Below, in pieces: positions 4,191 through 59,558 of a stretch of DNA of 64,000 nt (position 1 is the first letter of the stretch; the number at the start of each line of letters is the position of its first letter). The position numbers and the translations under genes are program-made. The notes beneath the pieces were generated by a model. It saw nothing but the letters and a program-made list of their open reading frames with translations. It searched no databases and was not told where the DNA came from. Location of the stretch: the NCBI RefSeq assembly GCF_030503435.1, contig NZ_JAUKPO010000009.1, positions 1-64,000 of the forward strand, read 5' to 3'. Origin of the DNA: Rhodocytophaga aerolata. Lineage in GTDB: Bacteria; Bacteroidota; Bacteroidia; Cytophagales; 172606-1.

Positions 4191-6020
4191 TTACTTGGTT
4201 AGCTCCAAGGTACGTTGAATAAATGAAGTCAGTTCTGCTCCGGAAAGCATGTTCTGAGAAAGTAATCCCAGATCATAGGTTTGTCTTACCAGTTTAGCTT
4301 TTTCGGCTTCATCTTCCGATTTCAAAATTTTATTAATTAAGGTATGGTTGGCATTAATAGCTACATTATAATTCATGGGCATTTCTCCAAACATAGCCAT
4401 TCCGCCGCCGCCGTTAGCTGCCATATCCCGCATGCGGCGCATAAACTCTGGCAAGGTAATCGTGACAGGCAACTCATCTACGGGAAGGGATTCTACGCTG
4501 AAGGTCAGATTTTTATTATTCAAGGTGTGTTCAAAAACTTCCTTCAGCTTTGTTTTTTCATCTTCTGAAAGTACACTTTCATTGGCAATACCTTTATCAA
4601 TTAACTTATCAATGGTATCAGAATCTACCCGTTTCAGGTTGGTTTTTTCCAGCTTGCGTTCCAGGGTATTAATAAAGTGGCTATCCAGCATCCCATCCAG
4701 TTTCAATACATCATAGCTGCGTTTTCTAGCAGACTGAACATAGGCATCTTGCTTACCAGGATCAGAAGTGTAAAGGAAGGTTACTGTGCCATCCTTATCT
4801 GTCTGGTTGGCTTGAACGTGTTCCCGGTATTCATTGAGTGTATAAAATTTGCTTTCTGTATTTTTCAACAGGCAGAAATCTTTGGCTTTGTCATAGAACT
4901 TGTCATCGGTAATCATTCCGTATTTAATAAACAAGCCAATATGATCAAACTTATCTTCAAACGACTTTCGGTCATTCTTAAATAGCTCCTGTAGTTTGTC
5001 GCCTACTTTTTTGGTAATGTGTGCATTGATCTTTTTTACATTGGCATCCGCCTGCAAGAAACTTCTGGACACATTCAGCGGAATATCAGGAGAATCAATA
5101 ACTCCATGCAGCAGCATCAAAAACTCTGGGACTACATCTTTTACTTCATCAGTAATAAACACCTGACGGGAATATAGCTGAATTTTATCTTTGTGCAGGT
5201 GCAATTCATTTTTTACTTTCGGGAAGTACAAAATACCAGTAAGGTTGAATGGATAGTCTACATTCAGATGAATCCAGAATAATGGATCTTCTGACATCGG
5301 ATACAGATCTTTATAGAACTTCAGGTAATCTTCGTCTTTCAGCTCAGAAGGAGATTTGGTCCAGAGAGGAGCCGTATTGTTAATAACATTTCCGTCAAAC
5401 TCGATAGGTACCGGAAGGAATTTACCATATTTATCCAGGATATTCTGGAGGCGGAATTTTTCCAGAAACTCTTTAGAGTCTTCGGCAATATGCAGCACGA
5501 TATCCGTGCCCCGTTCTTCTTTCGTAGTTTGGGTTATTTCAAACTCAGTGGTTCCAGCACTTACCCAACGGGCTGGTTCGGCATCTTCCCGGAAAGATTT
5601 GGTAATAATTTCCACTTTTTCAGCCACCATAAAGGCAGAGTAGAAGCCTAAGCCGAAATGCCCAATAATCTGCTGATCTTCTCCTTTGTCTTTGTATTTC
5701 TGCACAAATTCTGTAGCACCAGAAAAAGCAATCTGATTAATGTATTTTTTTATCTCTTCTGCCGTCATACCAATGCCATTGTCACTGACAGTAATTGTTT
5801 TGGCATTTTCATCGAGCTTTACTGTTACTTTTAGTTCGCCTAGCTCTCCATTAAACTCACCAATAGACGATAGTCTTTTCAACTTCTGGGTAGCATCTAC
5901 GGCATTCGACACCAGCTCACGTAAAAATATCTCATGGTCTGAATACAAGAACTTTTTAATGATCGGAAAAATGTTCTCGGTATGAATGGAAATGGTCCCT
6001 TTTTCTTCTGTAATTGCCAT
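4191..6020 (-). CDS. htpG: Molecular chaperone HtpG (Hsp90)
   Basis: Bacterial Hsp90, a cytosolic ATP-dependent homodimeric chaperone. GHKL-fold ATP site motifs are present in order: FLRELVSNAVDATQKL (the Glu and Asn that bind and activate water and Mg), VSDNGIGM, and GHFGLGFYSAFMVA. The middle domain carries the conserved PLNVSRSFLQ stretch with the Arg that contacts the ATP gamma-phosphate, and the C-terminal dimerization part follows. At 609 residues it is the short Bacteroidetes form, close to the usual 620-630. A TAnnTTTG promoter box lies about 40 bp upstream, and the gene ends at the bidirectional hairpin it shares with the GroES-like gene. Confidence 0.97.
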   Translation of the reverse strand: MAITEEKGTISIHTENIFPIIKKFLYSDHEIFLRELVSNAVDATQKLKRLSSIGEFNGELGELKVTVKLDENAKTITVSDNGIGMTAEEIKKYINQIAFSGATEFVQKYKDKGEDQQIIGHFGLGFYSAFMVAEKVEIITKSFREDAEPARWVSAGTTEFEITQTTKEERGTDIVLHIAEDSKEFLEKFRLQNILDKYGKFLPVPIEFDGNVINNTAPLWTKSPSELKDEDYLKFYKDLYPMSEDPLFWIHLNVDYPFNLTGILYFPKVKNELHLHKDKIQLYSRQVFITDEVKDVVPEFLMLLHGVIDSPDIPLNVSRSFLQADANVKKINAHITKKVGDKLQELFKNDRKSFEDKFDHIGLFIKYGMITDDKFYDKAKDFCLLKNTESKFYTLNEYREHVQANQTDKDGTVTFLYTSDPGKQDAYVQSARKRSYDVLKLDGMLDSHFINTLERKLEKTNLKRVDSDTIDKLIDKGIANESVLSEDEKTKLKEVFEHTLNNKNLTFSVESLPVDELPVTITLPEFMRRMRDMAANGGGGMAMFGEMPMNYNVAINANHTLINKILKSEDEAEKAKLVRQTYDLGLLSQNMLSGAELTSFIQRTLELTK

Positions 6021-48709: not shown

Positions 48710-50221
48710 CTACTGAGCTGTATATGCCAGTTTGCTAATTCTACCCCGGTCTAATACCAGATAGTTGTTAACAAACGTAGGAATTTCGTGGCTGTAGTGA
48801 CTAACAAAAATCAGGGTAGTAGCCGGTGTACAGTACATTTGCAGAAGTTTTGCCGAAAGATTAATATAGTACGCATCCAGTGCCTGGTAAGGTTCGTCCC
48901 AGATAATAACTTCCGGCTGCTTAATTAATGAACGGATAAGCAAAACAATGCGCTGCTGACCGGATGAAATACTCTGAAAGCTTTGCTCCATGAGATCTGC
49001 GAGATGAAAAAAAACGAAATGTTTCTGAATACTATCTTTCTGACTATCAGTAACTTTTTGGTTTAAGTATAAAGTATCAAAATATCCGGTAGCAACTACT
49101 TCCCAGCAAGGGATTTGCTGTTTGAAATACAGATGCAACTCTGGCGACACAAACCCGATTCGTTTCTTTATGTCCCAGATACTTTCGCCAGTTCCTCTGA
49201 TTTTATCAAACAAGACAATCGTATTCGCATACGCCTGCGGATGATCGGCGTTGATCAGGCTAAGAATGGTAGATTTACCGGAACCATTCGGCCCTAACAA
49301 AGCCCATTTTTCCCCCTTTTTCACTGTCCAGTTGATATGTTGCAAAGCCGGTTTATCACCATATTTCACTGATACATCTGTAAATTGGAAAGCTATGGTA
49401 AAATCAGGTTCTGGTTGTGATAGAAGCGAAAGAGTTGGTAGTATCTTTTCACCATCAGGCAGGGGATATTCATTAAATTGTTGCTTAAGGTACTCTTCTT
49501 TGGTATATACTCGGTTAATCTGAAAATTATCGAGCGCTAAAATATGCGTAATCTTTTGCGGAAATTCTTCAGAAGAAGTAGTCAGAATGACTTGTGTACC
49601 GGTTTCAATCAGATGGTTGATAATCTGGTTTAAATCGGCTCTTGTGGCTGTATCTAATCCAATAAATGGGTTGTCGAGGATTAATACCAACGGTTTCGCG
49701 AGTAATGCCTTCGCAATCCGGAGCTTTCTGGTCTGTCCGTTAGATAATTTAATGAACTCCAGAGGTAATACTTCTTCTATTCCCAGCAAGCGGCAAACCT
49801 GATTTATTTCACTTGCCACCGGGTCTTCAGACAAGCCTTTTTCCAGAAACTCCTGTGCCGTAATAATACCCTCCGATTGGGCTGCATTAAAGCGCTGCTG
49901 GTAATAAAAATTGGCATAATTGAGTAAGGCGGAATCTTCTCCAAAAGAGACTACGCGAATAAAATCATTCACTGGTAAGTAACTATCCGGCGTTGGCCGG
50001 TATTGTTCCAGGAAAGGATAGGAGAGTTGTCCATGCCGGAGTATAAATTTTCCGGTAAGTGCATTTATTAAACTGGTTTTACCCGAACCTGTGGGACCTA
50101 TAATGGCCCATTGTTCATTTTTCCTGATTTGCCAGGTTAGTTGATCGAAAAGCAAGTGCTGCCGGTGATAAAAACTGGCTTCTGTCAGCTCTACAATCGT
50201 TTCAGTGTGGGTTCTACTCAT
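48710..50221 (-). CDS. Twin-ATPase ABC protein, ModF-like
   Basis: A 503-residue protein with two ABC ATPase domains and no membrane part. First Walker A GPTGSGKTS at residues 41-49, signature LSNGQTRKL and Walker B VLILDNPFIG, with Asp-Asn in place of the usual Asp-Glu. Second Walker A GPNGSGKST (about 314-322), signature ISSGQQRIV and Walker B VIIWDEPYQAL. This resembles ModF/PhrA of molybdate regulons. The first site may be hydrolysis-poor because the catalytic Glu is Asn. No modA-B-C gene is near. Confidence 0.85.
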   Translation of the reverse strand: MSRTHTETIVELTEASFYHRQHLLFDQLTWQIRKNEQWAIIGPTGSGKTSLINALTGKFILRHGQLSYPFLEQYRPTPDSYLPVNDFIRVVSFGEDSALLNYANFYYQQRFNAAQSEGIITAQEFLEKGLSEDPVASEINQVCRLLGIEEVLPLEFIKLSNGQTRKLRIAKALLAKPLVLILDNPFIGLDTATRADLNQIINHLIETGTQVILTTSSEEFPQKITHILALDNFQINRVYTKEEYLKQQFNEYPLPDGEKILPTLSLLSQPEPDFTIAFQFTDVSVKYGDKPALQHINWTVKKGEKWALLGPNGSGKSTILSLINADHPQAYANTIVLFDKIRGTGESIWDIKKRIGFVSPELHLYFKQQIPCWEVVATGYFDTLYLNQKVTDSQKDSIQKHFVFFHLADLMEQSFQSISSGQQRIVLLIRSLIKQPEVIIWDEPYQALDAYYINLSAKLLQMYCTPATTLIFVSHYSHEIPTFVNNYLVLDRGRISKLAYTAQ

Positions 50222-52851: not shown

Positions 52852-53013
52852 AACAAAAAATTTGTACCAAATATGAACGGCCTACTGTCCGTTTCCGGAC
52901 ACTTATTGTTCCTTGGTTTATTCAGAATAAAGCCCCCCGATAGAAATTAGGCTCCTTTTCAGAGCTGGCAAATGGTTTGTTTAGCAAATGTGAAGATAAT
53001 CCCTTCCTTTTTT

Positions 53014-53349
53014 ATGAACCGAAACTACCTGGGAGAATTTGAAGAACTCGTACTGCTCACTGTAGCCCACATGCATGGCGAAGCCTATGGAGCCGCCATC
53101 ACGCAAGATATCAAAGAACGTACCGGCCGCAGTGTAGTCCTGAGTGCGGTACATGTAGCCCTTTACCGCCTGGAGGAAAAGGGCCTGGTAAGCTCTGCAG
53201 TAGGTGGGGCAACCGCAGAAAGAGGAGGCCGCCGAAAAAGGCTGTTTACCATTACCACCTACGGAATGAACATTCTGTCGGAGATTCGCCAGGTACGGGA
53301 AGATTTATGGCAATTAATCTCCAAACCCATTCAACCGGCTGTTCTATGA
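53014..53349 (+). CDS. PadR family transcriptional regulator
   Basis: A 111-residue winged-helix regulator. The PadR pattern is clear: LGEFEELVLLTVAHMHGEAYGAAI, then VVLSAVHVALYRLEEKGLVSS with the recognition helix and the wing ERGGRRKRLFTITTYG. I start it at ATG 53014, since upstream codons add a hydrophobic stretch foreign to the family. Its stop overlaps the permease start (ATGA), so the permease is translated with it. It likely controls this operon in response to an unknown signal. Confidence 0.93.
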   Translation: MNRNYLGEFEELVLLTVAHMHGEAYGAAITQDIKERTGRSVVLSAVHVALYRLEEKGLVSSAVGGATAERGGRRKRLFTITTYGMNILSEIRQVREDLWQLISKPIQPAVL

Positions 53350-56021
53350 AAAATTTGAATCATCCACCGCCATGGCTAGACAAGTTTCTGCAGTGGCGTA
53401 TGCCGGAAGAGCAGTTTGAAGAAGTGCAAGGAGACATGCACGAGTTGTACGGGCAATGGGTAGAAGAAATGGGTGAAGGCAAAGCCCGCCGCCGCTACCT
53501 GTGGACGACCCTGACCTTTCTGCGGCCTTTACCTAAAGCTAAAAAATCTCTTTATCCAACATACAGTGATTATTCACAAGCAAATTTTTTCGATATGATC
53601 CGTAATTATTTTAAAATAGCCTACCGGAATTTGATCCGCCACAAAAGTTTTTCCTTTCTCAATATCCTAGGGCTTACCCTGGGGTTGACAGCCTGCCTGC
53701 TGATAGCCCTGTTTGTACGGGATGAAAAAAGCTTCGATACCTTCATTCCCGAAGGCGACCGTATATACCGGATTTACCTTCAGGTCACCAATAATGAAGG
53801 CACTAATAATTCGGCTGGTACGCCTCCCAGGTTTGCTACTACTTTACCCCAAGAGTTTCCGGAAGTAGAAAAAGCTCTGCGCTTATTGAAGCTACAAAGT
53901 AAAGACCTTTTTGAAGCCGGAGATAAAAAGATATATGAGGAAGGCGGTATTGCCGTTGACTCTACTTTTTTTGACTTCTTCCCTCTTTCCTTCGCTTATG
54001 GAACCACTACTGGCATATTTGACGATCCTACGTCTATCATTATATCAAAGGAAATGGCTGAGCGGTATTTTGGGAAAGAAAATCCCATAGGCAAACAAAT
54101 CTCCCGCAATAAAACGCCTTTTCAAGTTAAAGGAGTTTTTGAAAATAACCCCAAATTCCATTTACAGCTTACCTATATTCTTCCTTTACGCATAACCGGC
54201 ATCCCACAGGAACGGATGCAAAGCTGGGGATGGCAACAATTCAATACCTATGTGAAACTAAAACCAAATGCAACGATCAGTTCCCTGGAAACCAAATTCC
54301 AAGACTACATTAGAGAGAATGTTCATCCCATTCTCAAAGAGTCTAGTTTTACGTATTTACCCAGGTTTCAACCCTTACACAACGTTCATTTATATTCTTC
54401 CGACTTCAAGTTCGATAACCTGGCTGTACGGGGTAACATTACCTATGTAAATGCCTTGACCATTATTGCCCTGTTCATTCTGCTGATTGCCTGCTTCAAT
54501 TTTGTGAATCTGGCGACAGCCAAATCTTTGCAGCGGGCCAAAGAAGTAGGGGTACGGAAAACGGTAGGAGCCACAAGAAAACAGTTGATTATCCAGTACA
54601 TCAGCGAAACCGTGCTACTGGCATTTATTAGTATGAGTATATCGGTTATTCTCACCTTTTTGATTGTGCCCTGGCTTAACCGCTTTACTGAAAAACAGAT
54701 CACTTTTGACCTCTTTACTAATCCGCTGTTATTACCTTTGTTGCTTATCCTCACCATCGGAGTAGGAGTGCTGGCAGGTTTTTATCCGGCATTGGTCTTG
54801 TCTGGGTTTCAGCCAGTAAAAGTGTTGAAAGGGGCAGGTATGGCTGATTCAAAGCCTGGCCAAATACCCTGGCTACGGCATAGCTTAGTGGTGGTGCAAT
54901 TCTCCTTATCCGTTTTGCTTATTGTAAGCGCTATGGTAGTGATCAGGCAGGTGAACTATTTGCATAACAAGGATTTGGGCATAAATAAAGAACAGATCCT
55001 GTTTTTTCCCATGCGTGGCGATAACATGTTCAACAACTATGAAACTTTTAAAAACGAGTTATTGAAATCATCCACTGTTTCTTCCGTATCCATTGGCTAT
55101 GGTTTTCCGGGCGATATGGTGGCAGGCGATAACATCATTACAAGCAAAGAGGGCAAACGGGTTTCCCAACGGGCCATTCAGCTTATGGTAGACCATGATT
55201 ATGTAAAAACCCTGGATATTCAATTGATAGCTGGCCGGGACTTTTCTAAACAGATGTCTACTGACAAAGATGCTGCCTATATTATCAACGAAACAGCCGT
55301 TAGAGAACTGGGTTTTGGAACGCCTGATAATGCATTGGGCAAGACTTTGTGGTGGGAGGTATGGGGAGCAGAGAACTCAGATTCATTAAAGCAAGGTCAA
55401 GTAATTGGGGTGGTGAAAGATTTTCATTACAATAGTTTGTATGATAAAGTGGAAACCACCGTCTTACAGATATTCCCAGATGCCTACTGGAAAGTGGCTG
55501 TAAAGCTAAAAACAGCTCAAATGGCCACTGCCTTACCCCATGTGCAAGCTGTATGGAATAAGTTCTCTCCCGACTATCCGATCGAATACCGCTTTCTGGA
55601 TGAAAGCTTTGAGCAGATGTACAAAGCCGAAGATAAACTTAAATCTTTGTTATGGATCTTTACCTGTATCACTGTTTTTGTGGCTTGCCTGGGTTTGTTT
55701 GGCTTAGCAGCTTATGCAGCAGAACGACGGAAGAAAGAGATTGGCATCCGCAAAGTTTTGGGAGCCAGTGTAGAGAGCCTAGTGCTGCTCTTGTCTAAAG
55801 AGTTTGTTAAGCTGGTAGCCGTGGCTTTGCTGCTAGCCACCCCCTTAGCCTGGTATGCGATGGACAACTGGCTGCAAGATTTTGCTTACCGTATAGATTT
55901 AGACTGGTGGATCTTTGCGTTGGCCGGGGTGCTAGCTTTGCTGATAGCCTTGTTAACGGTCAGTTTTCAATCCATCAAAGCTGCCCTGATGAATCCTGTC
56001 AAGTCTTTACGCAGCGAGTAA
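53346..56021 (+). CDS. FtsX/MacB-like permease with prefix domain, copy 1
   Basis: An 891-residue ABC-type permease. A cytosolic prefix domain (residues 1-80, with PPPWLDKFLQWRMPEEQFEE) precedes TM1 (about 103-124) and a large extracytoplasmic MacB-like domain (125-360). A three-helix FtsX core follows (365-490), then TM5 near residues 515-535, a second extracytoplasmic domain (540-765) and the C-terminal FtsX core (775-890). It has no ATPase domain of its own and none is adjacent, so a separate ATPase must drive it. Start by ATGA overlap with padR. Four stretches are near-identical to copy 2. Confidence 0.92.
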   Translation: MKNLNHPPPWLDKFLQWRMPEEQFEEVQGDMHELYGQWVEEMGEGKARRRYLWTTLTFLRPLPKAKKSLYPTYSDYSQANFFDMIRNYFKIAYRNLIRHKSFSFLNILGLTLGLTACLLIALFVRDEKSFDTFIPEGDRIYRIYLQVTNNEGTNNSAGTPPRFATTLPQEFPEVEKALRLLKLQSKDLFEAGDKKIYEEGGIAVDSTFFDFFPLSFAYGTTTGIFDDPTSIIISKEMAERYFGKENPIGKQISRNKTPFQVKGVFENNPKFHLQLTYILPLRITGIPQERMQSWGWQQFNTYVKLKPNATISSLETKFQDYIRENVHPILKESSFTYLPRFQPLHNVHLYSSDFKFDNLAVRGNITYVNALTIIALFILLIACFNFVNLATAKSLQRAKEVGVRKTVGATRKQLIIQYISETVLLAFISMSISVILTFLIVPWLNRFTEKQITFDLFTNPLLLPLLLILTIGVGVLAGFYPALVLSGFQPVKVLKGAGMADSKPGQIPWLRHSLVVVQFSLSVLLIVSAMVVIRQVNYLHNKDLGINKEQILFFPMRGDNMFNNYETFKNELLKSSTVSSVSIGYGFPGDMVAGDNIITSKEGKRVSQRAIQLMVDHDYVKTLDIQLIAGRDFSKQMSTDKDAAYIINETAVRELGFGTPDNALGKTLWWEVWGAENSDSLKQGQVIGVVKDFHYNSLYDKVETTVLQIFPDAYWKVAVKLKTAQMATALPHVQAVWNKFSPDYPIEYRFLDESFEQMYKAEDKLKSLLWIFTCITVFVACLGLFGLAAYAAERRKKEIGIRKVLGASVESLVLLLSKEFVKLVAVALLLATPLAWYAMDNWLQDFAYRIDLDWWIFALAGVLALLIALLTVSFQSIKAALMNPVKSLRSE

Positions 56022-56055
56022 AGTTTCCATTTGCAAAGTGTGTAGCAAAGATTTA

Positions 56056-58728
56056 ATGGCATCTATGAGTAAAGATAGTAAAGGGCATCTGCCACCGCCA
56101 TGGATAGACAAGTTTCTGCAGTGGCGGCTACCCGAAGAGCAGTTTGAAGAGGTACAAGGCGATTTGCATGAGCTCTATGGGCAATGGGTAGAAGAAATGG
56201 GTGAAGGCAAAGCCCGCGGCCGCTACCTGTGGACAGCCCTGACCTTTCTGCGGCCCTTACCTAAAGCTAAAAAATCTCTTTATCCAACATACAGTGATTA
56301 TTCACAAGCAAATTTTTTCGATATGATCCGTAATTATTTCAAAATAGCTTACCGGAATTTAATCCGCCACAAAAGCTTTTCCTTTCTCAACATTTTAGGA
56401 CTCACCCTAGGTTTAACAGCCTGTTTGCTGATAGCTTTGTTTGTGCAGGATGAGAGAAGCTTTGATAAATTTGTGCCTGCAGGTGACCGCATCTACCGGG
56501 TGTATTATCAAGTGGACAACAATGAAGGAACCAGTGTTATTGCTACTACTCCTCCGGTATTTCCTACCATTTTGCAGCAAAATTTTGCAGAGGTGGAAAG
56601 TACGTTACGGGTCTTGAATCATTCGGGAAAAGAGTTGTTTGAGGTAGGGGATAGGGAGGCTTATGAAGAAAGAGGAATTTTCGCGGATTCTACTTTTTTC
56701 GACTTTTTTCCACTCTCTTTTACCTTCGGTAGTTCATTAAAAGCCTTGGATGGCCCGACTTCTATTGTGCTTTCTCAGCCAATGGCTCAAAAGTATTTTG
56801 GAAACGAAAATCCTGTTGGTAAACAAATTCTAATGGATAAGCAGCCCTTTCAGGTAGCAGGGGTTTTTGCAAGTAATCCCAAATTTCATCTTCAGGTAAA
56901 CTATATTCTACCTATGTCGGCAACCGGATTATCTGCTGAGCAATTGCAAAGCTGGAGTACCTATAGCCATAATAACTATATAAAATTGAAAGAAGGTACG
57001 AATGTAGCTACCTTAGAGACTCAGTTCAGGCAATATACCCAGCCGTATCTTAAGGATGAAGTTTCTACGTTTCTGCCTGTATTTCAACCGTTACATGACA
57101 TACACCTGTATTCTGCTTCATTTAAATATGATATGGCTGTACGGGGCAACATCACCTATGTAAATGCCTTAACCATTATTGCGCTGTTTATTCTGCTGAT
57201 CGCATGTTTTAATTTTGTGAATCTGGCGACAGCCAAATCTTTGCAGCGGGCCAAAGAAGTAGGGGTACGGAAAACGGTAGGAGCCACAAGAAAACAGTTG
57301 ATGGTACAATACATCAGTGAAACCGTGCTACTGGCATTTATCAGTATGATTTTATCGGCTTGCTTTAGCTATTTATTTCTTCCTTCTCTCAACCGTTTTG
57401 CCGAAAAGCAGATCTCTTTTGATTTATTTACCAATCCGCTTATGCCGCCTGTTCTTTTGCTATTAGCCTTAACTGTGGGTATACTGGCAGGTTTCTATCC
57501 GGCACTAGTCCTATCCGGTTACCAGCCAGTTCGCGTCTTGAAAGGAAATGTGGTGGGAGAGACTAACTTGGGAAAAACACCGTGGCTGCGGCATAGTTTG
57601 GTAGTCGTGCAATTTTCTCTGTCGGTACTGCTCATCATCAGCGCAATTGTGGTTATTACTCAGGTAAATTATTTGCACAACAAAAACCTGGGATTTACAA
57701 AAGAACAGATCTTGTTTTTCCCCATGCGTGGTGATAACATGTTCAACAACTATGAAACTTTTAAGAACGAGTTATTGAAATCATCCACTGTTTCTTCCGT
57801 ATCCATTGGCTATGGTTTTCCGGGCGATATGTTTGGCGATGGCTTAATGACAGCCCCTGTGGAAGGAGTGGAGAAAAAACTAAAGGCAACACAGCTAATG
57901 ATAGACCACGACTATATTCCCACCTTGGGATTACAATTAGTAGCCGGCAGAAATTTTTCCAAAGAGATGTCCACTGATAAAGATGCTGCTTATATCATTA
58001 ATGAAACCGCTGCCAAAGAGTTAGGATATGCTGTTGCCAGTCAAGCGATTGGGCAAACATTACTCTGGAATACCTGGCGGAAACCAGACTTGGTAAAAAG
58101 AGGGAAAGTGATAGGGGTGGTAAAGGATTTTCACTTTAAAAGCTTGTATGATAAAATGGAGCCTGCCGTACTACAAATCTATCCGGAAGCCTACTGGAAA
58201 GTAGCCGTAAAGCTAAAAACGGCTCATATGGCCACTGCCTTACCCCATGTGCAAGCTGTATGGAATAAGTTCTCTCCCGACTATCCGATCGAATACCGCT
58301 TTCTGGATGAAAGCTTTGAGCAGATGTACAAAGCCGAAGATAAACTTAAATCTTTGTTATGGATCTTTACCTGTATCACTGTTTTTGTGGCTTGCCTGGG
58401 TTTGTTTGGCTTAGCAGCTTATGCAGCAGAACGACGGAAGAAAGAGATTGGCATCCGCAAAGTTTTGGGAGCCAGTGTAGAGAGCCTAGTGCTGCTCTTG
58501 TCTAAAGAGTTTGTTAAGCTGGTAGCCGTGGCTTTGCTGCTAGCCACCCCCTTAGCCTGGTATGCGATGGACAACTGGCTGCAAGATTTTGCTTACCGTA
58601 TAGATTTAGACTGGTGGATTTTTGCGTTGGCCGGGGTGCTAGCTTTGCTGATAGCCTTGTTGACGGTCAGTTTTCAATCCATCAAAGCTGCCCTGATGAA
58701 TCCTGTCAAGTCTTTGCGTAGCGAGTAG
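56056..58728 (+). CDS. FtsX/MacB-like permease with prefix domain, copy 2
   Basis: A paralog of copy 1, 35 bp downstream on the same strand, with the same domain order (prefix, TM1, extracytoplasmic domain, FtsX core, second extracytoplasmic domain, FtsX core). Start at ATG 56056; ATG 56065 is equally possible. The extracytoplasmic parts differ strongly from copy 1 (for example the 125-360 region), while the prefix-to-TM1 segment and the last 500 bp are almost the same at DNA level. This suggests separate substrates or signals on a shared membrane engine. No ATPase adjacent. Confidence 0.92.
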   Translation: MASMSKDSKGHLPPPWIDKFLQWRLPEEQFEEVQGDLHELYGQWVEEMGEGKARGRYLWTALTFLRPLPKAKKSLYPTYSDYSQANFFDMIRNYFKIAYRNLIRHKSFSFLNILGLTLGLTACLLIALFVQDERSFDKFVPAGDRIYRVYYQVDNNEGTSVIATTPPVFPTILQQNFAEVESTLRVLNHSGKELFEVGDREAYEERGIFADSTFFDFFPLSFTFGSSLKALDGPTSIVLSQPMAQKYFGNENPVGKQILMDKQPFQVAGVFASNPKFHLQVNYILPMSATGLSAEQLQSWSTYSHNNYIKLKEGTNVATLETQFRQYTQPYLKDEVSTFLPVFQPLHDIHLYSASFKYDMAVRGNITYVNALTIIALFILLIACFNFVNLATAKSLQRAKEVGVRKTVGATRKQLMVQYISETVLLAFISMILSACFSYLFLPSLNRFAEKQISFDLFTNPLMPPVLLLLALTVGILAGFYPALVLSGYQPVRVLKGNVVGETNLGKTPWLRHSLVVVQFSLSVLLIISAIVVITQVNYLHNKNLGFTKEQILFFPMRGDNMFNNYETFKNELLKSSTVSSVSIGYGFPGDMFGDGLMTAPVEGVEKKLKATQLMIDHDYIPTLGLQLVAGRNFSKEMSTDKDAAYIINETAAKELGYAVASQAIGQTLLWNTWRKPDLVKRGKVIGVVKDFHFKSLYDKMEPAVLQIYPEAYWKVAVKLKTAHMATALPHVQAVWNKFSPDYPIEYRFLDESFEQMYKAEDKLKSLLWIFTCITVFVACLGLFGLAAYAAERRKKEIGIRKVLGASVESLVLLLSKEFVKLVAVALLLATPLAWYAMDNWLQDFAYRIDLDWWIFALAGVLALLIALLTVSFQSIKAALMNPVKSLRSE

Positions 58729-58818: not shown

Positions 58819-58853
58819 AAAAACCGCTGCTGGTATCTGCAGCAGCGGTTTTT
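58819..58853. terminator. Bidirectional terminator, permease/lipoprotein
   Basis: A perfect 13-bp stem AAAAACCGCTGCT/AGCAGCGGTTTTT with a nine-base loop, between the permease operon and the convergent lipoprotein gene. Confidence 0.92.
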
Positions 58854-58864
58854 CTAAAAGACGT

Positions 58865-59302
58865 TTACTTGGTAACCACCTCTACCTGATAAGTTTTAAG
58901 AATGCGGCCTGGCCCTTCTTCTTCTTTTTGCTTTTCGGCGAAGGAAATTTTAACACTTCCGGGAGTCACTCCTTTTACCAGAAAAACCATGTTGCCCTTG
59001 TCTGGTACGGTGCTGGTAGTAGTTTCCTCGGTAGTATCTGCTTTATCGGTTACATCCACAATTTCCTTGTTTTCAGAAGAACTGGCTACCTGCCAGGTGC
59101 TGTCCCGCTGGCTGGTCAGGCGGATTTCTTTAATTTCCCCAACCGCAAGTTTAATTTTCTTGGAAGGTTCAGAAAATGTATAGCCATTTTTCGATGACAT
59201 GCCTCCACAGGCAGCCAGGCTACAGCAAAACAAGGTTAGTACGACAACAGATACTTGTTTCTGCAGCTTTTGGGTATAGGTAGTGACAAAGGAGTGATGC
59301 AT
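58865..59302 (-). CDS. Hypothetical lipoprotein
   Basis: A 145-residue lipoprotein with lipobox SLAAC. The start at ATG 59302 (MHHSFVTTYTQKLQ) puts the hydrophobic signal at a proper distance; the upstream in-frame ATG at 59356 adds 18 residues of no clear role. The mature part is rich in Thr/Glu/Lys, with two strand-like segments (VGEIKEIRLTSQRDSTWQV and GNMVFLVKGVTPGSVKISF), a pattern seen in Ig-like or proteinase-inhibitor (chagasin I42-like) folds. The chagasin idea is weak. Function unknown. Confidence 0.65.
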   Translation of the reverse strand: MHHSFVTTYTQKLQKQVSVVVLTLFCCSLAACGGMSSKNGYTFSEPSKKIKLAVGEIKEIRLTSQRDSTWQVASSSENKEIVDVTDKADTTEETTTSTVPDKGNMVFLVKGVTPGSVKISFAEKQKEEEGPGRILKTYQVEVVTK

Positions 59303-59558
59303 AGTTATGTAGTAAGGTCTACCCCTTATTCTATTGGCTTCCGAAAAAGGTTGCATCTATATGCTGTATTATTTAGCAATACAGGCTAAATTCATAGCAC
59401 ACTAGCTACGTATGTGAAAGAAATAGCTAGGTACCCTTACAGCAGAAGAAAGCAAAGATAACCCTTGTTCTCTCCAGGAGCTATTTATCGTAAGTCTGCG
59501 AACAAAATATTCCAGGTCTGCTGCTTTCTATGTAGTTTTAATAAATTATTTTTTAAAG

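Follow-up and report, generated by a model that had tools for sequence, protein, structure and literature searches.

Permeases of the ADOP type are defined by the absence of an ABC ATPase gene adjoining the permease gene. YbbP pairs with its own ATPase, YbbA, and is not known to have a prefix domain, and in MacB the ATPase is present in the same chain as a single permease half. For large permease families with ~60-70 full-length copies per genome, we know of no assigned function. As for recombination between gene copies, a study of 2026 (PMC13061034) reportedly found gene conversion in antigen loci of M. tuberculosis. Bacterial paralogs are generally known to undergo gene conversion and to evolve in concert (review cited in PMC4209131); for the gene families of Chlamydiae treated in PMC4209131, recombination among the members was tested and birth-and-death evolution, not concerted evolution, was concluded. 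In the only paper found to use the name 'duplicated orphan permease', copies were counted in Dyadobacter (PMC11573002). No report of gene conversion in FtsX-like permeases was found in the open-licence PMC literature.

In the window (the whole 64,000-nucleotide stretch of Rhodocytophaga aerolata DNA that was analysed), two tandem permease genes, A and B, follow a padR-like regulator gene (Table 1), and the ATG of gene A shares four bases (ATGA) with the padR stop. The two genes are 76.8% identical at the nucleotide and amino acid levels alike (894 aligned codons) and code for permeases resembling ADOP and YbbP, each with two periplasmic domains. The order of the parts in A, as given by an AlphaFold2 model (10-row alignment; mean pLDDT, 74; pTM, 0.64), is prefix helices, TM1, periplasmic domain 1, TM2-4, TM5, periplasmic domain 2, and TM6-8. 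No ATPase gene was found within the padR-A-B cluster. On the opposite strand, ~2.7 kb before padR, an open reading frame with two ABC ATPase-like halves was seen by eye (48710-50221). Also by eye, a hairpin followed by a T run was noticed at ~58819-58855, ~90 bases 3' of the stop of B; it resembles an intrinsic terminator and faces the convergent open reading frame at 58865-59356. In the genome of the same genus (G001), the synteny of the flanking genes was not found, the best matches of the left-hand and right-hand neighbours being ~3.6 Mb apart, and the match of the right-hand neighbour had no further open reading frame of at least 150 aa in flanks of ~1.5 kb on each side.

The ADOP profile (TIGR03434) is matched over its full length (in the 904-aa frame of A, residues 103-904 align with profile positions 6-803), and A and B share with ADOP the two FtsX-type halves with periplasmic domains and the large paralogous family; they differ in score, since A and B reach 328.3 and 334.4 bits, below the curated cut-off of 622.3. 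By record title, the named relatives are from genera or classes of Bacteroidota in 10 of 11 cases and from a Kapaibacterium in one, with none from Acidobacteria. The profile of prefix domain 2-containing transporters (NF038404) gave 68.1 and 69.2 bits (cut-off, 35). The scores for the DarB darobactin exporter permease (NF038008; 164.6 and 149.3 bits) and for MacB (PRK10535/NF007826; 38.7 and 55.4 bits) were below the respective cut-offs of 700 (curated) and 966, and no ATPase domain was found with the Pfam scan. With Foldseek, the best match was E. coli YbbAP (PDB 9ge6, 9ge7), a chain of ~800 residues matched over nearly the whole length (E = 1.7e-19), although the identity is 14% and the TM-score for 9ge6 is 0.42-0.46; MacB, LolCDE, and BceAB entries followed. 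By both sequence and fold, MacB (PDB 5lil and others) has the periplasmic core domain and the FtsX C-terminal permease domain in common with A and B, whereas A and B have two permease halves and no ATPase domain. By homology, A and B are probably MacB/YbbP-type permeases under PadR control, and the ATPase, if any, is probably encoded elsewhere. By motif, four ABC-like open reading frames were present in 599,708 bases of the fetched, partly overlapping loci. In one locus of the same genome (L073, contig C136), an ABC ATPase-like frame, likewise assigned by motif, starts right after a permease copy at about base 6018; this mostly orphan family therefore has exceptions, and some members may have a nearby partner.

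Table 1. Features of the padR-A-B cluster and blocks of the A-B comparison (positions in the window; same-aa codons are those encoding the same residue in both copies, Met and Trp excluded)
Feature	Position	Strand	Description
padR-like regulator	52972-53349	+	Leading gene of padR-A-B cluster; Pfam PF03551, 35.6 bits (cut-off 27)
Permease gene A	53346-56021	+	891 aa from ATG 53346; MacB_PCD, two FtsX stretches, perm_prefix_2
Permease gene B	56056-58728	+	890 aa from ATG 56056 (upstream GTG, alternative start); same families as A; tandem paralog
Prefix block in A	53356-53662	+	92.7% to B; graded shoulders flank identical core
TM2 block in A	54421-54636	+	93.1% to B; graded shoulders flank identical core
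Tract T1 in A	53451-53648	+	Covers latter half of prefix, the linker and an amphipathic helix; identical core at 53529-53611; partner in B, 56179-56376; 54/60 same-aa codons identical
Tract T2 in A	54498-54605	+	Covers latter half of TM2, the cytoplasmic loop and the beginning of TM3; identical core at 54498-54589; partner in B, 57211-57318; 32/34 same-aa codons identical
Tract T3 in A	54998-55118	+	Partner 57711-57831; start of periplasmic domain 2, not membrane; 33/37 same-aa codons identical
Tract T4 in A	55521-56021	+	Covers last part of periplasmic domain 2 and, up to the stop, TM6-8; partner in B, 58228-58728; 152/156 same-aa codons identical
Diverged block in A	53663-54420	+	Latter part of TM1 and periplasmic domain 1; 61.9% nt to B
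Diverged block in A	54637-54986	+	Later part of TM3, TM4, linker, TM5; 65.1% nt to B
Diverged block in A	55119-55481	+	Middle of periplasmic domain 2; 62.7% nt to B

The initial annotation of this DNA had described the two genes as a tandem mosaic of near-identical and diverged blocks, and all four blocks that it named were found exactly as described in ungapped comparison: 53529-53611 against 56257-56339 (0/83 mismatches), 54498-54589 against 57211-57302 (0/92), 55008-55118 against 57721-57831 (2/111, at 55019 and 55052), and 55521-56021 against 58228-58728 (5/501, at 55913, 55955, 56009, 56012, and 56021, the last being in the stop codon, TAA versus TAG). The longest stretch without a mismatch spans 392 bp (55521-55912), compared with at most 68 in 2,000 codon shuffles. 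With a three-state segmentation, three diverged stretches of 62-65% identity were placed between blocks of 90-99%, in addition to an unrelated start. The edges, which had been reported as sharp, are not equally so throughout: the left side of T4 lies at 55520/55521, preceded by a short shoulder of 90% identity (55482-55520), and the prefix and TM2 blocks grade off around their identical cores; the right edge of T4 coincides with the stop codon, past which there is no homology. Synonymous identity was counted over same-aa codons and amounted to 271/287 codons in the tracts versus 175/372 outside (the tract limits were picked from the data that were also used in the Fisher tests, so that the p-values are too small).

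The share of each part lying within the tracts was 65% for the prefix and linker, 6% for TM1, 0% for periplasmic domain 1, 44% for TM2, 100% for the next loop, 26% for TM3, 0% for TM4 and for TM5, 34% for periplasmic domain 2, and 100% for TM6-8. The proposal that the membrane and prefix parts are kept alike while the outer domains vary therefore stands for periplasmic domain 1, TM6-8, and most of the prefix and linker; it fails for TM1, TM4, TM5, most of TM3, and periplasmic domain 2. Likewise, the extracytoplasmic parts, described as clearly diverged, are so in domain 1, but T3 is located wholly inside domain 2. The tracts thus do not follow the division into membrane and outer parts, though domain 1 is tract-free.

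The search for further copies, which had been suggested along with the mosaic, gave 73 listed matches at E <= 0.001 in the genome of the window (G000), of which 61 full-length copies were surveyed. Full-length copies numbered 58 to 72 per genome, and the survey set comprised 250 of them from four genomes (G000, 61; G001, 72; G005, 58; G006, 59), taken from the 73 listed matches in G000 and from 76, 58, and 60 listed matches at E <= 1e-60 in G001, G005, and G006, respectively; open reading frames of at least 700 aa with no internal stop were taken, and shorter or stop-broken copies were left out. Among the latter, stops were seen inside the matched frame in several G000 copies (e.g., C136:72356-74857 and C180:22682-25201), which suggests decay of some, and a 148-residue match to the C-terminal part only (C148:2429-2872) suggests a decayed copy. 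Each of the 7,750 pairs within genomes was scored by a log-likelihood ratio (LLR) for its best stretch of synonymous identity, with a limit of 13 chosen after distant pairs were seen reaching 11.7; pairs on the same strand and within 30 kb were considered to be in the same array. Tracts above this limit were present in 7/119 adjacent pairs, 3/402 other same-array pairs, and 0/7,229 remaining pairs, and are thus confined to tandem arrays in the four genomes; note that the 10 strong pairs are not independent, owing to shared genes and corresponding arrays of G005 and G006. The A-B pair has the highest score (LLR, 48.8; maximum of 2,000 shuffles, 12.4), and two strong tracts occur in G001.

When genes over 840 aa were classed as long, and assumed from their length only to bear the prefix, strong tracts were found in 9/95 long-long, 1/39 mixed, and 0/387 short-short pairs (adjacent or array pairs), each of the 10 strong pairs including at least one long gene. 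Since long-long adjacent pairs are more alike (mean, 330 versus 278 same-aa codons), similarity may account for part of this excess. A PadR-like match was located directly upstream of 43/95 long genes and 2/146 short genes (four genomes; at least 700 bases upstream; 9/250 genes unclassed).

The comparison of paralogs with orthologs was performed on sister arrays, those of the close genomes G005 and G006; most counterpart copies of these genomes are 89-98.5% alike. In six of the seven strong tracts, the within-genome paralogs were more alike than both of the between-species comparisons, and in the remaining one, paralog identity beats only one of the two, a point against conversion. In the arrays on G005 C9 and G006 C7, the neighbours have no differences in either species and 7/78 between the species. 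In the G006 C7 tract, the two copies are 96.7% identical, versus 80.5% and 84.6% to the other species, and outside the tract the values are 64.4% versus 93.2% and 93.2%. The tandem copies on G005 C2 have 0/660 differences, versus 48/660 to the single G006 counterpart, which serves both copies, copy b being without a counterpart of its own; in the remainder of the gene, the identity of copy b to this counterpart (83.5%) is no closer than that to copy a (82.9%), which also counts against the explanation. In the same locus (G005 C2:539979-545171 and G006 C11:490173-492755; L105, L113), the G006 counterpart was nearer to one G005 copy in most windows and nearer to the other in a few, and this mixed affinity indicates that copy-number change and mosaicism go together. 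Within-genome paralogs that are closer than the copies of different species are a hallmark of gene conversion that postdates the species split; the sister arrays have thus evolved in concert since then.

Gene conversion had been put forward in the initial annotation, and it is supported by the synonymous sites of A and B, the scan of the four genomes, and the comparison of the sister genomes. Ectopic gene conversion between the tandem copies is very probably the best explanation for the A-B mosaic. A and B would derive from an old tandem duplication, with the synonymous sites beyond the tracts near saturation, and later recombination would have copied stretches of ~100-500 bp of one copy onto the other. 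This may have been conversion of the ordinary RecA type, in several events of differing ages, with the 3' tract perhaps the youngest; the similarity of the copies may help to decide the placement of the tracts, and selection may tolerate the homogenisation of the converted parts. As a point against the explanation, no ortholog of the pair was found, the best matches in seven other genomes of the bacterial family being only 45-46% identical. Similarity alone does not predict the tract sites well: the mean nucleotide identity of A to other paralogs is 0.59 in T2, 0.55 in T4, 0.51 in T1 (19 paralogs only), and 0.40 in T3, where the next-best paralog of the same genome is merely 36% identical in amino acids, and unconverted TM1 (0.54) and TM5 (0.50) are about equal to T1, contrary to what a purely similarity-seeded model predicts.

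In a stronger form of conversion, which we regard as possible but doubtful, homogenisation would itself be selected, being kept in the prefix, the coupling loop, and the C-terminal membrane part to fit shared partners and purged from the sensing domains. Mammalian TLR1/TLR6 offer a precedent (PMC2077338). The recurrence of tracts at corresponding sites is consistent with this form, since the main tract of the 10 strongest pairs was in the prefix/linker in six, TM2 and the loop in one, the end of TM4 and the linker in one, and the C-terminal part in two, and the excess among long genes points in the same direction, although the greater similarity of long-long adjacent pairs may make selection unnecessary for such recurrence. 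Against it are the periplasmic position of T3, the unconverted TM1, TM4, TM5, and most of TM3, and the G005 C2 tract, one of the two C-terminal ones and the longest in a sister genome, which takes in roughly half of periplasmic domain 2 as well (residues 636-867 of A). In 26 reciprocal-best G005/G006 pairs of the first batch (27 + 28 genes of 58 + 59), some of which carry conversion tracts, dN/dS was 0.071 for periplasmic domain 1, 0.059 for domain 2, 0.057 for TM1, 0.065 for TM2-4, 0.036 for TM5, and 0.048 for TM6-8, and no sign of diversification of the outer domains was found. Diversifying selection on these domains was accordingly rejected, as their values are similar to those of the membrane regions (0.036-0.065); the idea of the initial annotation that different signals might feed one engine has to be seen beside these values. 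The prefix had the highest value of the parts compared (0.132), and is thus the least constrained, yet it is the commonest site of the main tract.

A quite different history, in which the tandem duplication was recent and diverged cassettes of other paralogs or strains then took the place of the outer blocks, would likewise produce sharp edges, and its donors may lie outside the genomes searched. We regard this history as highly improbable. In each of the 10 non-tract blocks, the closest protein to A is B and vice versa, among 60 full-length copies compared from their genome, which indicates an old duplication rather than foreign cassettes; moreover, several intermediate identities occur among the blocks, and the sister arrays were homogenised after the separation of the species. 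The next-best relatives of B in its own genome are 43% identical, and third paralogs were rejected as the source of the outer blocks, since none of the 58 other copies compared matches an outer block better than the partner does.

Strong constraint on the protein or the codons, acting without conversion, can practically be dismissed. It is true that some blocks match conserved segments (mean amino acid identity of A to other paralogs, 0.56 in T2 and 0.48 in T4). However, the synonymous identity in T4 is 0.97 between A and B and 0.41 between A and other paralogs, and thus the DNA of T4 is not conserved across the permease family; conversely, TM5 is 82% alike in protein in its block, yet only 9/30 of its synonymous codons are identical. 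In periplasmic domain 1, 59/128 synonymous codons are identical, and over the non-tract blocks the A-B synonymous identity was 0.31-0.62, versus 0.34-0.52 for A against the other paralogs pooled. Since synonymous identity is near-complete in the blocks and paralog-like or somewhat higher outside, selection at the protein level cannot explain the blocks, and constraint alone is contradicted by synonymous sites that are unconserved in other paralogs. An artefact of the 202-contig draft, in which near-identical tandem copies are difficult to assemble, was rejected as well, because the flanks of A and B differ, five differences lie inside the long block, and the same pattern is present in G001, whose 8.98 Mb form one contig.

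With ectopic conversion as the preferred reading, the parts homogenised among array neighbours (the prefix, the coupling loop, and the C-terminal membrane part) may share a partner, and whole-sequence trees of such permeases blend parts of unlike history. In bacteria, conversion could be measured against sequence similarity with the G005 and G006 arrays. A conversion mosaic is a phenomenon of known kind (cf. TLR1/TLR6), for which we found no earlier report in this permease family. It is conceivable, though in our opinion unlikely, that the prefix-bearing, PadR-linked arrays of this bacterial family form a counterpart of TLR1/TLR6, in which maintained conversion would keep the cytoplasmic prefix and the engine common to the copies of an array, which could then share a single partner or regulator, and the sensing domains in the periplasm would diversify. 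TLR1 and TLR6 (PMC2077338) are likewise tandem receptor-like paralogs of which the C-terminal part, including the membrane domain, is closer between paralogs than between orthologs, the rest being diverged; they differ in being animal immune receptors in which independent conversions in nine species affected nearly one and the same region, whereas several sites and genes are involved here.
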